From NCBI RefSeq assembly GCF_034424525.1, contig NZ_CP139979.1, positions 3,683,001 to 3,747,000 on the forward strand: a stretch of 64,000 nucleotides of DNA. The letters run 5' to 3'. A program made the translations under genes and the position numbers. The notes under the pieces were generated by a model, which was given only the letters and a program-made list of their open reading frames with translations, ran no database searches and had not been told where the DNA came from. Below, one piece after another: positions 16,907 through 21,755 of this stretch. The stretch is from Sphingobium yanoikuyae (GTDB lineage: Bacteria; Pseudomonadota; Alphaproteobacteria; Sphingomonadales; Sphingomonadaceae). Positions within the stretch are counted from its first letter, which is position 1. Each line of letters opens with the position of its first letter.

Positions 16907-17085
16907 GCGTCCGCCAAAGACCGCGTCATCCCGACGATACGACGCTTCCCCTTGATGAATCATGTTTTTCTGGCACACCCCAAGGAGATTGCGGCGGGGT
17001 CCGACAAGATGGCGACCATGTATCGCCGACCGGGCTCACGCCGACAATGACAGGTGGGGGACAATAGAGTGAGTGCGGGTCGCGC

Positions 17086-18681
17086 ATGAACAAGGTCAAG
17101 GAGGCGCCTGCCACGGTCGGCGCGCGCCAATATCGTGCTTTTCTGAGCTACAGCCATGCCGACGAGCGCGCGGCGGGAAAACTGCATCATTGGCTGGAAA
17201 CCTACCGGATGCCCAGGCGACTGGTCGGCATACAGGCCGGCCGGGCGGCGGTCCCGCGCCGGCTGACCCCGATCTTTCGCGATCGCGCCGAATTGCCGGC
17301 CGCTTCCAGCCTCGACGAACAGGTGCGCCTGGCCCTGTCCCAGTCGGACGCCCTGCTGGTGCTATGCTCGCCAGCGGCGAAGGCCTCGCGCTGGGTCAAT
17401 GCGGAAATCGCGCTGTTCCGCGAACTTCATCCCGACCGGCCGATCATCGCCGCGCTGGTCGCGGGTGAGCCGGCCGACAGCTTTCCCGCCGCGCTGATCG
17501 CGCGCGATGCCGATGGCATAGAGCGTGAACCGATCGCCGCCGATTTTCGCGCCGACAGCGACGGCCCCAAACTGGCCCGGTTGAAGATCGTCGCCGGCCT
17601 GACCGGCGTACCGCTTGACCAGATCATCCAGCGCGACGCCCAGCGCCAGTTGCGCCGTGTGATAGCCGTCACATTTGTTGCGCTTTTTCTTGTCCTATTG
17701 ATGGCGGCAATGCTGGTCTTTGTCGCGCGGGCAAGGAGCGAGGCAGAAAGCCAGCGCCAGCAGGCAGAGGGACTGATCGAATTCATGCTGACCGATCTGC
17801 GGGAAAAGCTGGAGGGCGTTGGCCGGCTCGACGTGCTGCAGACGGTGAACAAGCGTGCGCTCGCTTATTATGCCGACCAGCCCGACCTGGAAACATTGCC
17901 GGGCGATTCGCTCGAACGGCGCGCCCGTATCCTGCAGGCCATGGGCGAGGATGATTTCAAACGCGGCGACACGCCCGAAGCCATCGCCCAGTTTCGCGAG
18001 GCCTATCGCGTCACTTCAACCCTGCTGGCCGCCGCACCGAACGATCCGCAACGCCTGTTCGCCCATGCCCAGAGCGAATTCTGGCTCGGCTATGTCGATT
18101 TTATCCGCGATCGGAACGACGCCGCCCTGACACGCTTCCAATCCTATCAGGCGCTGGCCGAAAGGCTGGTGCAGTTGCGTCCGGCGAACGACGCCTATTG
18201 GCGGGAACTGGGCTATGCGCAGGGCAATATCTGCACCATCGCCCTCGCCAGGAAGAATCCCGACAGAACATTGCAAAGCTGCAAGGGCGCGCTCGACACC
18301 ATGATGCGGGTCCAGCGCCTGGCGCCCGGCGATCCGGCGATCGCCGCGGACCTCGCCAATCGCCATGCCTGGATGGCGGACGCGCTGCGCCTGCAGGGGG
18401 ATGACCGGGCGGCACTGGTGCAGCGCGAAAAGCAGGACGCGATCCTGCGGTCGCTGCTCCGGCGCGATCCGAAAAATGCCGGTTATCTGCAGGACTGGAT
18501 GCTCGCGCGCTATTCCATGTCGAACCTGCTCTATGATCTGGGTGAAACCGATCGCGCCAAGGCGTTGCGCGCCGAGGCCCGCGCCGACGTCGCCGACCTG
18601 GTGGCGCGCGATCCGGCGAACAAGGACTGGCAGGTCTGGCAGGGCAAGCTGGCCAAACCATTGACGAAGGGGAGCAAATAA
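17086..18681 (+). CDS. TIR domain - transmembrane - TPR protein
   Basis: 531 residues. An N-terminal TIR_2-type domain (about 15-185) shows FLSYSHADE, the RRLTPIFRDRAELP loop, and SPAAKASRWVNAE, whose Glu107 matches the catalytic glutamate of NAD-cleaving TIRs. One membrane helix spans about 191-214. A helical part follows (about 225-520) with TPR-like pairs. The TIR domain should face the cytosol, with the TPR part likely periplasmic; this is an inference. TIR-TM-TPR/WD40 proteins are widespread in Proteobacteria with no settled function. It is the first gene of a tight three-gene unit: the next ATG is one base after its TAA. Confidence 0.88.
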   Translation: MNKVKEAPATVGARQYRAFLSYSHADERAAGKLHHWLETYRMPRRLVGIQAGRAAVPRRLTPIFRDRAELPAASSLDEQVRLALSQSDALLVLCSPAAKASRWVNAEIALFRELHPDRPIIAALVAGEPADSFPAALIARDADGIEREPIAADFRADSDGPKLARLKIVAGLTGVPLDQIIQRDAQRQLRRVIAVTFVALFLVLLMAAMLVFVARARSEAESQRQQAEGLIEFMLTDLREKLEGVGRLDVLQTVNKRALAYYADQPDLETLPGDSLERRARILQAMGEDDFKRGDTPEAIAQFREAYRVTSTLLAAAPNDPQRLFAHAQSEFWLGYVDFIRDRNDAALTRFQSYQALAERLVQLRPANDAYWRELGYAQGNICTIALARKNPDRTLQSCKGALDTMMRVQRLAPGDPAIAADLANRHAWMADALRLQGDDRAALVQREKQDAILRSLLRRDPKNAGYLQDWMLARYSMSNLLYDLGETDRAKALRAEARADVADLVARDPANKDWQVWQGKLAKPLTKGSK

Positions 18682-18682
18682 G

Positions 18683-19165
18683 ATGTCGACGCTGAATTAT
18701 ACCCAATATGGCCTGGCGCCATTGATCGAGGTCGAACTGGAAGATGGCGTCGCGCCGCTGCAGTTCAACGTCGCGCTAAGGGGTGAGAAGGGTTGGGTTT
18801 CGCTGCGCTATGAACAGCCCGGCGTCACCGATCATGACTATATCGCCATCACCGAAAATTCGATCGTGGAAATCAACCTGATCGGCGATCAGCTGTTCTT
18901 CTCGAAAAATTACGACGCCATCACGACCGAGGAGCCGCTCTCTTCCTTTTACGGCGGCTTGATCTATGATGATTATCACGCCGATCAGGACCGCTACAAG
19001 ACCGTCCGGTTCCAGGCACGCTACAACCAGGGCGGCAAATATGGCACGCGGCACGGCTTCAACATCAATATCGACCTGCTGCAAAATCCCAGTGCCACCG
19101 AACCCAAATGGATCCCGCTGTCGATCGACCCTGACATCAAGAATCCACCGCCCAAGGAAGACTGA
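18683..19165 (+). CDS. Unrecognised 160-residue protein of the TIR cassette
   Basis: Starts MSTLNYTQYGLAPLIEVELEDG one base after the TIR gene stop, behind an AAGGGGAG site, so translation is probably coupled. The protein looks beta-rich and soluble, acidic, with conserved-looking aromatic words (GWVSLRYEQPG, YGGLIYDDYHADQDRYK, KYGTRHGFNINIDLL) and a charged tail (DIKNPPPKED). No signal peptide or membrane span. I do not recognise a family. Its position between a TIR protein and a SLOG-like protein argues for a role as adaptor, sensor or effector in that system. Confidence 0.8.
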   Translation: MSTLNYTQYGLAPLIEVELEDGVAPLQFNVALRGEKGWVSLRYEQPGVTDHDYIAITENSIVEINLIGDQLFFSKNYDAITTEEPLSSFYGGLIYDDYHADQDRYKTVRFQARYNQGGKYGTRHGFNINIDLLQNPSATEPKWIPLSIDPDIKNPPPKED

Positions 19166-19189
19166 GCGCGGCGACGGGGTGGTGGCGAC

Positions 19190-20641
19190 ATGATCCTTCC
19201 GATCCTTGCGCAGATCCGCAGGGTCGCACGCAGCGGCGACACCGTTCGCGCCTGGACAATGTTCGGCGCGGCGGGCTTGCTGCCGTCACGCGACAGGGAT
19301 GCGCTGACCCTCAAGGGCCGGCTGCTCAAGGATCGGGCGCTGCGCAGCGAGGGCGCCGAACGCGCCGCGCTGCTGGACGAGGCGCGACAGGCCTATCTCC
19401 AGGCGGCCAGCGACTGCCGCGCCACCTATCCGCTCATCAATGCCGCCACCCTCGCCTTTCTGAACGATCACCCCGCCGACGCGGCCGACCTCGCCCGCCA
19501 GGTGCTGACACTGCTCGACAGCGGCGATCATGTGCAGGAGACGCGCTACTGGCTGGCGGCGACAGCGGCCGAAGCCCATCTGCTGCTGGGTGACGAGGCC
19601 GCAGCGCAGGCCGCCCTGACACAGGCCATGACGGCCGCGCCGGATGCCTGGGAAGATCATGCCGCAACCCTGCGGCAATTCCACGAGATATTGACCAGGC
19701 AGGGGCGCTCGACCGCAATCCTCGATCCGCTGCGCCCGCCACCCAGCCTCTATTTCAGCGGCATCATCGGCCTGCCGGACAATGAGGAGGAAGCGCGCGG
19801 CAAGATCGAGGCGGCACTCGACCAGATTGCGCCGGGTGCCGCCTTCGGGGCGCTCGCCGCGGGCGCCGATATCCTGATCGCCGAATGCGCCCTTTTCCGG
19901 GGCATCCAGTTGCACATCGTCCTGCCGACAAGTCTCGACGTCTTTCGGCAAAGCTCGGTCGGCCGGTTCGGTGACCATTGGCTCGCCCGCTTCGATCGGC
20001 TGATCGACATGGCCGACAGCCTGGACGCGCCCGACGCCATCACCAGCCTGTCCAACGCGGCGATCGACAAGGGGTGCGAGATCGCCATGGGACTGGCGCT
20101 GCGCCGTGCCGACGCCTTTGCGACACAGGCCATCGCACTGCATATCGGTCGCGCCTCGGATCAGCCTGCCCCTGCCTATCGGCTGTGGCAGTCACGCACA
20201 TTGCCCGTGCGCAAGATCATCCTCGAACAATCAATGCCTCCCTCTGGCGATGCGCTGCCCATGGCCGCCAACAAGGCTGTGCTGGCATCGACGACGCGCC
20301 TCGCGCCAACCATGCGCGAAAGCGCCAATGGCCTGCATTTCGAGGCATTCGACGATATGGCCACCGCCATGCTCCAGGCCAGCCTGATCCTGAAGGACTG
20401 GCCGGACCATGGGCTGGCGCTGGAATATCAAACGGTCATGCCGAACGATCCGATCGATGGCGAGGACTGCCTGGCGCTGCTCCTGGCGCCAGCCGCACCG
20501 GCCGGTAGCATCTGCATGCCCTGGCCACAGGCCGCCGCCATGGCGCTGCAAGGCCCCGGATATCGGTTCGAGATTGCCGGTGAAGTGATGACCCGCCAGG
20601 GCGATTGCCCGGTCGGCCATTATTATCCGCCGTCCAGCTGA
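19190..20641 (+). CDS. TPR-S / SLOG-like protein with degenerate cyclase-like C-terminus
   Basis: 483 residues. Residues 1-180 form TPR-like helices of the kind annotated as TRAFs-binding or TPR-S. Residues 186-275 resemble the SLOG-like Rossmann domain that follows TPR-S elsewhere: YFSGIIGLPD, AAGADILIAECALFRGIQLHIVLP, VFRQSSV and W-x2-RF. Residues about 341-480 are laid out like a class III nucleotidyl cyclase (GLHFEAFDDMATAMLQASLIL, AAPAGSICMPWPQAAA, YRFEIAGEV, C-terminal HYY), but the first metal-binding FxD motif is replaced by LEQS, so catalysis is doubtful. Third gene of the TIR cassette, 24 bases after gene two. Domain assignments are by pattern, not by profile search. Confidence 0.72.
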   Translation: MILPILAQIRRVARSGDTVRAWTMFGAAGLLPSRDRDALTLKGRLLKDRALRSEGAERAALLDEARQAYLQAASDCRATYPLINAATLAFLNDHPADAADLARQVLTLLDSGDHVQETRYWLAATAAEAHLLLGDEAAAQAALTQAMTAAPDAWEDHAATLRQFHEILTRQGRSTAILDPLRPPPSLYFSGIIGLPDNEEEARGKIEAALDQIAPGAAFGALAAGADILIAECALFRGIQLHIVLPTSLDVFRQSSVGRFGDHWLARFDRLIDMADSLDAPDAITSLSNAAIDKGCEIAMGLALRRADAFATQAIALHIGRASDQPAPAYRLWQSRTLPVRKIILEQSMPPSGDALPMAANKAVLASTTRLAPTMRESANGLHFEAFDDMATAMLQASLILKDWPDHGLALEYQTVMPNDPIDGEDCLALLLAPAAPAGSICMPWPQAAAMALQGPGYRFEIAGEVMTRQGDCPVGHYYPPSS

Positions 20642-20653
20642 CGGCGCGCGCCT

Positions 20654-21307
20654 TCAGACGACCATGTCCGCCAGCATGCGCGGCGCATGGATCTGCATCT
20701 GACCATCTTCCCGACTGACGATGCCGCGCCGAATCAGCACGGCGATCGCGCGGGACGCGGTCTCGCGGGTCGTATTCGCGCTCAGCGCCAGGGTGGTGAC
20801 CTGCGGCGCGGGCACGATATGATCGCGACCATCGGCCAGCGCGAGCAATTCGCTATAGACCCGCCCGGCCGCGCTATAGGTGGACCGGGTCGCCATTCTA
20901 TCCAGCGCCCGATCGAGCTGGCGCGCCAGCAGCCAGGCCATGCCCGCGCCGATCTGCGCATCGCCCGCCACCAGCGCGGCCAGCGATTGTGCCTCCGCGC
21001 GCAACAGGCGGCTTTCGACCAGCACCTCTATCTCGGCCCGGTGCGTCGTGGGCGCTGGATAGGCGCCGAAAAACTCCCCCGGCCCATGACGCGCCAATTG
21101 CTGGCGCTGGCCGTCGATGCCAAAGGTCTGCACCGCCACGCAGCCGTCGACGATCAGCCAGCAATGGTGCGACGCTTCCCCTTGCCGGGCCAATATCTGC
21201 TTGGCGCCGACCTGCTGCGGAACCAGCACGCGGCGCAGCAGCTCCGCCGCCTTCCGATCACATCGGAAAACCGCTGCCAGCACCTCGACCTGTTCCTCGA
21301 CCTGCAA
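20654..21307 (-). CDS. Crp/Fnr-family transcriptional regulator
   Basis: 217 residues from a TTG at 21307 preceded by GAGGAG (7 bases); no ATG is available near the start. The cyclic-nucleotide-binding beta-roll spans about 25-110, with a degraded phosphate-binding cassette (GEFFGAYPAPTTHRA; CRP has a ribose-contacting Glu where this has Ala). The C-terminal HTH is about 168-200 (VTTLALSANTTRETASRAIAVLIRRG). No Fnr-type cysteine cluster. It is convergent with the TIR cassette (12-base gap), and a CRP-like site lies 94 bases upstream of its start. The ligand may not be cAMP. Confidence 0.88.
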   Translation of the reverse strand: MQVEEQVEVLAAVFRCDRKAAELLRRVLVPQQVGAKQILARQGEASHHCWLIVDGCVAVQTFGIDGQRQQLARHGPGEFFGAYPAPTTHRAEIEVLVESRLLRAEAQSLAALVAGDAQIGAGMAWLLARQLDRALDRMATRSTYSAAGRVYSELLALADGRDHIVPAPQVTTLALSANTTRETASRAIAVLIRRGIVSREDGQMQIHAPRMLADMVV

Positions 21308-21400
21308 TCCTTCACTCCTCGGTGACGATCGATCGTTCCGTTACCGGCATAGCCTATGCGCTCCGGATGAACAGGAGGGCAGGATGATTCTCGGAAAATA

Positions 21401-21416
21401 TGTGATCTGCATCACG
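21401..21416. promoter_or_regulatory. CRP-like binding site
   Basis: TGTGA-TCTGCA-TCACG, preceded by AAATA, matches the E. coli CRP half-sites TGTGA-N6-TCACA in 9 of 10 positions. It lies between a Crp/Fnr gene reading left and a hairpin-terminated transcript reading right, so it could serve autoregulation, the candidate small RNA, or both. Confidence 0.6.
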
Positions 21417-21439
21417 GCCATGCCGAGGAGATTTCCCTA

Positions 21440-21523
21440 TGGAATCAGCGCGACCCGAAGGAGGCCCCGGTGGGGCAACCTTTTCTTGGCCCGGAGCTTC
21501 ATATGGCTTCGGGCCTTTTTTTT
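21440..21523 (+). ncRNA. Candidate small RNA ending in a strong terminator
   Basis: The region downstream of the CRP-like site holds a GCCCC-GGT-GGGGC hairpin (21464-21476), an unpaired CAACCTTTTC stretch and a full intrinsic terminator (21488-21523), with no credible ORF or gene to be terminated. That is the layout of an Hfq-type small RNA. The 5' end is a guess, as no promoter boxes could be fixed. Confidence 0.35.
21488..21523 (+). terminator. Strong rho-independent terminator
   Basis: GGCCCGGAGC (21488-21497) pairs with GCTTCGGGCC (21506-21515), with one G-U pair, around an 8-base loop, followed by eight T's. No protein gene lies upstream on this strand: the Crp/Fnr gene points the other way. 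Confidence 0.85.
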
Positions 21524-21661
21524 CGCAATCTCCATGCGGTTCGGCCATCAACCACAAGAGGGGGCGCCGCGCGTGGAAACCAAATGCCGGTGCGTGAACC
21601 GATCGGCAATATATGCTGCTGGATGGTCCCTGACAGGGAAAGGTTCGCTCTCAGAGCGATG

Positions 21662-21685
21662 CACCACCTTGTCATGAAGGTGGTG
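21662..21685 (-). other. Hairpin overlapping the tRNA-Glu 3' end
   Basis: CACCACCTT (21662-21670) pairs with AAGGTGGTG (21677-21685). On the minus strand it starts inside the encoded ACCA end of the tRNA, and a second short dyad (TCGCTC-TGA-GAGCGA) follows. It probably functions in termination or 3' processing of the tRNA. Confidence 0.5.
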
Positions 21686-21755
21686 ACCCCTACGGGAATC
21701 GAACCCGTGTTTCAGCCGTGAAAGGGCCGCGTCCTAACCGCTAGACGAAGGGGCC
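21681..21755 (-). tRNA. tRNA-Glu (anticodon TTC)
   Basis: The minus strand reads a complete cloverleaf of 75 bases. The acceptor GGCCCCT pairs with AGGGGTC, the D-loop has TAGCGGTTAGGA, the anticodon loop is CTTTCAC (TTC, Glu), the T-arm is CGGGTTCGATTCCCG, and CCA is encoded at the 3' end. Upstream lies the recJ gene on the same strand. Confidence 0.95.

Follow-up and report, generated by a model that had tools for sequence, protein, structure and literature searches.

A mobile TIR, TPR-S/SLOG and CRP gene set of Sphingobium yanoikuyae that resembles a signalling circuit with a predicted small RNA output

A stretch of 64,000 nucleotides from Sphingobium yanoikuyae (NZ_CP139979.1, positions 3,683,001 to 3,747,000, forward strand; the window, in which all positions below are counted) contains a mobile set of four genes that resembles a signalling circuit, namely a membrane TIR protein, a sensor with a dead cyclase, a small partner, and a gene switch. 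From its sequence, the set is tentatively read as a self-contained mobile signalling cassette, in which a membrane TIR protein would produce a signal, a TPR-S/SLOG protein would read it, and a CRP-family regulator would respond by activating a small RNA (sRNA); on this reading as a whole we are almost evenly divided. The TIR glutamate, the SLOG motif, and the DNA-reading helix of the CRP are kept, the cyclase aspartates and the CRP pocket are lost, and the sRNA carries a CRP-type site, which together points to a signalling circuit with transcriptional output. TIR systems and TPR-S/SLOG systems are commonly interpreted as defence that ends in killing, whereas a transcriptional output is most plausible here. 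The features of the cassette are as follows.

17086–18681, plus strand: protein of 531 residues with a TIR domain, one transmembrane segment, and a C-terminal repeat-like region (Pfam TIR_2/ThsB_TIR)
17140–17472, plus strand: TIR domain, residues 19–129 (Pfam)
17668–17724, plus strand: transmembrane segment, residues 195–213 (hydropathy)
18683–19165, plus strand: PF20301 pNTSase1 protein of 160 residues, modelled as an SO1698-like β-sandwich (Pfam, structure model, Foldseek, VIA)
19127–19132, plus strand: codons of the invariant Asp149-Pro150 (alignment, 25 of 25 rows)
19190–20641, plus strand: third protein, comprising TPR-S, SLOG, and a degenerate class III cyclase
19190–19735, plus strand: TPR-S scaffold, ASK1-like, residues 1–182
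19736–20236, plus strand: SLOG domain, residues 183–349
20261–20632, plus strand: class III cyclase fold without either metal-binding Asp, residues 358–481
20654–21307, minus strand: CRP/FNR-family regulator with lost cAMP-pocket residues and the kept recognition helix RETASR (cNMP_binding and HTH_Crp_2)
21401–21416, strand not applicable: CRP-type palindrome TGTGATCTGCATCACG (centre at −41.5 relative to the modelled start of the sRNA)
21450–21528, plus strand: sRNA gene with two hairpins and a terminator, divergent from the CRP gene

The original prediction had described the first three genes as an operon with the TIR and SLOG parts as possible writer and reader of a nucleotide signal. All three open reading frames are present where it had placed them, and the idea stands as regards their co-occurrence, the SLOG fold, the TIR glutamate, and the distinction from Thoeris. 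It fails in treating the middle gene as an orphan, and it is incomplete in that the cyclase domain, the CRP-type gene, and (in about half of the loci) the sRNA with its CRP-type site were missed. Co-occurrence was assessed in 41 loci (the window, L009–L037, L052–L059, and L063–L065), all of which were found via the middle gene and are thus uninformative on TIR and third genes that lack it. The profiles of the TIR protein and the third protein match in 41 of 41 loci, that of the middle protein at E 1e-20 in 31, and a CRP is present in 37; near-identical loci (window, L065, L009, and L064) inflate these counts. In L011, L021, L052, and L059, the stretch examined yielded no CRP gene; in L034 the gene lies ~5 kb off, and in L055 it is on the operon strand. 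The flanking genes vary from locus to locus. Genes in fetched loci were called by a simple codon model, by which some are missed or clipped.

The TIR protein has a single hydrophobic segment (residues 195–213), and its TPR matches fall below the Pfam cut-off. Its catalytic-type Glu107 is conserved in each of the 40 rows that extend over this position; the remaining locus (L010) is cut at a contig end. Matches to PADLOC are weak, with a SAVED-TIR model as the best (E 2.3e-05). A PDB sequence search with the protein gives zero matches; the profile gives six weak ones, of which designed proteins are the best, followed by TLR and the TIR of flax L6 (E 0.02–0.06). The TIR gene itself contains a perfect CRP-type palindrome (17658–17673).

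The third protein combines three domains. TPR-S (PF20308) is matched at 34.8 bits against a Pfam cut-off of 27.6, and it is followed by a SLOG/Rossmann fold, as originally proposed, and by a class III nucleotidyl cyclase fold. The domain matches come from VIA, whereas Foldseek with the whole protein ranks TPR proteins first, with one non-TPR protein among the best 50. The SLOG motif is invariant in the alignment (A2). Class III cyclases depend on two metal-binding aspartates in the active site, neither of which is present in the window protein; none of 42 lost-type cassettes has both, and five have one (L011, L027, L055, L149, and L152). The TPR-S scaffold resembles the central regulatory region of ASK1 (MAP3K5); unlike ASK1, the third protein has no kinase, and SLOG and the dead cyclase come after the scaffold. 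Proteins with TPR-S, SLOG, and a class III cyclase that has both aspartates are found in L091–L110, with no cassette TIR in the stretch examined; the one in L104 additionally bears an RyR domain.

The middle protein matches PF20301 (pNTSase1) at 203.8 bits against a curated cut-off of 25 (Pfam), and because of this strong match it belongs to a catalogued family; its status as a 160-residue orphan is therefore rejected. The names of PF20301 and of its relatives at NCBI ("nucleotide synthetase") suggest that it makes the signal read by the third protein, an explanation that we consider highly improbable. The structure model is all β (predicted local distance difference test, pLDDT, 86.8). All 12 Foldseek matches at E < 0.001 are chains of SO1698, titled aspartic peptidase, to which VIA also matches the model. 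Among the best 50 entries of the Foldseek list and of the VIA list there is no nucleotide-making enzyme, although such lists cannot exclude one, and the all-β, SO1698-like model lends no support to nucleotide synthesis. Furthermore, the slot between the TIR gene and the third gene is filled by an unrelated protein in four loci. The annotation as a nucleotide synthetase, which is spreading in databases, is thus called into question.

The likeness to SO1698 of Shewanella (3n55 and mutants) concerns the fold (TMt 0.63–0.68) and the Asp-Pro pair, which lies within about one residue of D116-P117 as judged by alignment ends; the two proteins are only 12–15% identical. Asp149-Pro150 is invariant in 25 of 25 alignment rows. 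An [IVL]DP motif near the C terminus is found in 46 of 50 middle-slot proteins as opposed to 20 of 409 flanking proteins, the former number being inflated since the picker preferred the motif-bearing reading frame when one of two had the motif. No pick was made in four more loci (L018, L020, L022, and L148), and in L156 and L158 the genes are on opposite strands. The middle protein is far more divergent across loci than its neighbours, and its profile finds nothing among PDB sequences at E 10. On the model, the pNTSase1 partner may be a self-cleaving Asp-Pro β-sandwich and not a synthetase. This is one part of a joint reading, in which the CRP, having lost its pocket together with the cyclase, responds to the NAD-derived signal or to the reader itself and turns on a dedicated sRNA; that all of these parts hold together is rather unlikely. 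The unrelated proteins that occupy the slot in L125, L127, L131, and L152 are His-rich, and the two that were scanned have no Pfam match.

The gene next to the third gene encodes a CRP/FNR-family regulator, as seen from its cyclic nucleotide monophosphate (cNMP)-binding-type domain (50.5 bits; cut-off 27.5) and Crp helix-turn-helix (33 bits; cut-off 27). In CRP of E. coli, E72, R82, and S83 bind cyclic AMP (cAMP). In the window protein, the Glu column is occupied by Ala and the Arg-Ser-Ala columns by HRA. The cyclase and its CRP partner have decayed jointly: among 50 cassettes with both a CRP and a third protein, all 12 with intact cyclase aspartates keep the pocket Glu and Arg-Ser/Thr, and in the remaining 38 both pocket elements are gone. 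Orthology to the cassette CRP was found in six of eight other genomes tested. In all five genomes of family f5, inferred to be Kordiimonas-like from a protein name, the window CRP matches the cassette CRP alone, and in G316 the cassette CRP is its best match. Given the orthology results, f5 and the lost-type clade can be compared firmly, L153 and L154 less so. A helix of the form RE...R reads TGTGA. Of 51 aligned CRP rows, 48 retain the recognition helix RETxSR, the exceptions being L153 (REPVTR), L154 (REAVTR), and L157, in which no third protein is nearby.

The sRNA gene lies upstream of the CRP gene and points away from it; it comprises two hairpins, an invariant 5' CGACCCGA, and a terminator, and is absent from Rfam. 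Both sides have changed in 7 of its 18 pairs. An identity as mmgR/suhB (RF00519) was rejected (21.4 bits versus a gathering cut-off of 41), and the mmgR/suhB copies of this genome that score above the cut-off differ from it in sequence. The 19 cassette copies from which the model was built match it by construction; in all, it matches 23 of 64 sources, equivalent to 21 distinct loci (L009/L066 and L012/L062 are from the same genomes). Counted from the first base of the model, which is not a mapped 5' end, a CRP-type palindrome with at most two mismatches of 10 is centred at −41.5 in 19 and at −42.5 in two of these 21 loci; five palindromes are perfect, seven have one mismatch, and nine have two. 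When each locus was shuffled 300 times, an equally good site arose anywhere in the 110 bases in 0 to 23 of the shuffles. A centre at −41.5 is the class II position of CRP.

Relatives of the sRNA are present in 60 of the 61 genomes of the genus. In 13 further copies that were read, the palindrome is in register in three of three beside a relative of the window CRP and in none of 10 elsewhere. Where a genus genome has such a CRP relative (14 genomes), the RNA adjoins it in 12; in G1007 it does not, and in G028 two of three matches, those listed, lie elsewhere. Copies away from the CRP gene (L208, L212, L214, and L215) carry another upstream element, similar to TGTC-GATC-ATCCAATAA, at the place of the CRP site. 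Judged by this element, the sRNA is probably a family with exchangeable promoters.

The proposed circuit would run as follows. The TIR protein is anchored in the membrane, and its enzyme domain is probably cytosolic. Upon an envelope cue, it would make an NAD-derived nucleotide. This signal would be read by the third protein, with its ASK1-like TPR scaffold, SLOG pocket, and dead cyclase, together with the fast-changing β-sandwich partner. The output would be the CRP-family regulator with its intact DNA-reading helix, which is predicted to activate the adjoining sRNA from the observed site of class II type, centred at −41.5. Ancestrally, the third protein probably worked as an active cyclase and signalled to the CRP through a cyclic nucleotide; since the cyclase active site and the CRP pocket are both gone, the link would now run via another ligand or direct contact. 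A named DNA site and an sRNA offer a simple readout by which the role of TIR–transmembrane–TPR proteins becomes testable.

Several observations weigh against this circuit. Only 21 of the 41 loci have a match to the sRNA, and the f5 loci have none. The agreement between cyclase and CRP in 50 of 50 cassettes amounts to a single event on the tree, and the cassette CRP is only the fourth match in G409, with no match at E 0.001 in G328. A housekeeping CRP could use the same site. In front of the TIR gene, a CRP-type site (at most two mismatches) is not clearly enriched, being present in 9 of 59 upstream stretches and in 114 of 1180 shuffles, so that control of the TIR promoter by a CRP is not supported. 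In addition, the CRP–sRNA pair occurs without the cassette in G021 and G012, where PF20301 is missing, and in G035 (L204) it is on a different contig from the TIR, middle, and third genes; the two halves of the system can therefore separate. Such cases, and the cassettes with a distant CRP (L034) or none found (four of 41), are what would be expected if the pair were a neighbour with its own job and the TIR operon were independent. This explanation is unlikely: a CRP accompanies 37 of 41 cassettes despite changing flanks, the cassette CRP is the sole match in five of five f5 genomes, and the state of its pocket tracks that of the cyclase.

The closest known systems share some of the parts. Thoeris (ThsB TIR and ThsA, either SIR2-SLOG or another effector such as the macro and TM variants) also has TIR and SLOG in neighbouring genes, but the SLOG of the cassette is located on a TPR-S/pseudocyclase protein and its TIR is membrane-anchored. 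The cassette proteins contain neither a SIR2 nor a macro domain, nor any other known ThsA effector, and the ThsB models of PADLOC match at E 0.017 to 0.087. Pycsar, defined by an active pyrimidine cyclase and a cNMP-sensing effector, likewise pairs, within a single locus, a class III cyclase fold with a cNMP-binding-type domain; in the cassette, however, the cyclase aspartates are lost and the cNMP-type domain is part of a DNA-binding CRP without the pocket residues. TPR-S and pNTSase1 were reportedly described by Burroughs and Aravind in 2020 from predicted conflict systems, in which the TPR scaffold is said to be expected to read NAD-derived signals. Both families (PF20308 and PF20301) are found here, and the dead cyclase, the joint decay with the CRP, the sRNA, and the SO1698-like fold are observations of the present analysis. 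In the collection searched, nothing was found on this locus, on TPR-S together with TIR and "nucleotide synthetase", or on pNTSase. Enterobacterial sRNAs such as CsrC are reported to be under CRP control (PMC7591399, PMC4376681). The predicted control of the present sRNA is similar; here, however, the CRP gene lies next to the sRNA gene, and the CRP protein lacks the cAMP-binding residues of E. coli CRP.

The distribution of the cassette is patchy. When one genome per species was searched with the profile of the middle protein, 29 loci were obtained, the titled ones being from sphingomonads and relatives. The middle gene is present in 7 of 61 relatives (own genome counted), 13 of 246 genomes of the order, and 4 of 398 genomes of the phylum sample. 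The TIR-protein profile is positive in 16 of these 398 genomes; among 12 fetched, the third protein is nearby in seven (on the other strand in L156 and L158) and not in five (L150, L151, L155, L157, and L159). Of 29 genomes in the G040 family, 11 encode a protein closely related to the third protein of G040. The match to the window is limited to 16945–21520 in G018 and 17065–21523 in G022, both at other chromosomal places, and the block common to all three, about 4.5 kb, consists of the cassette and the sRNA only. Beside tRNA-Glu and RecJ, the window match ends at the transfer RNA (tRNA) in 29 of 29 relatives read; the cassette is therefore absent from the roughly 1.3 kb examined there.

This patchy spread (7 of 61 relatives) and the movement between sites would also suit an anti-phage or conflict system, in which the middle or TPR-S protein senses an invader, the TIR protein destroys NAD+, the cell stops, and the CRP merely tunes expression. 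The reported naming of TPR-S and pNTSase1 from predicted conflict systems fits as well, as does a middle protein that diverges fast and is replaced by an unrelated one in four loci. Nevertheless, the linked genes encode a regulator and an sRNA, the TIR protein matches PADLOC models weakly, and the middle gene has no copy in viral contigs or in the phages searched. Of 132 listed adjacent genes, 51 were scanned; the 25 most frequent Pfam families among these are mainly those of enzymes and transport proteins, and phage integrase accounts for two of the 51. PADLOC matches one of the 51 adjacent proteins (a β-galactosidase-type model) and none of the 10 other window genes. A defence-island context is thus not supported, and we regard the conflict system as doubtful, if a genuine contender. 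The absence of such a context favours the alternative that the original prediction had itself offered, a signalling module.

In the plasmid set, one Novosphingobium replicon of 1.8 Mb matches the middle protein. In G016 (L065 and L162), the window match at the cassette locus extends 47 bases into the tRNA-Glu gene (21681–21755 in the window), and the tRNA beside RecJ lies ~98 kb from this locus, an arrangement that looks like an island inserted at a tRNA with a duplicated tRNA end.

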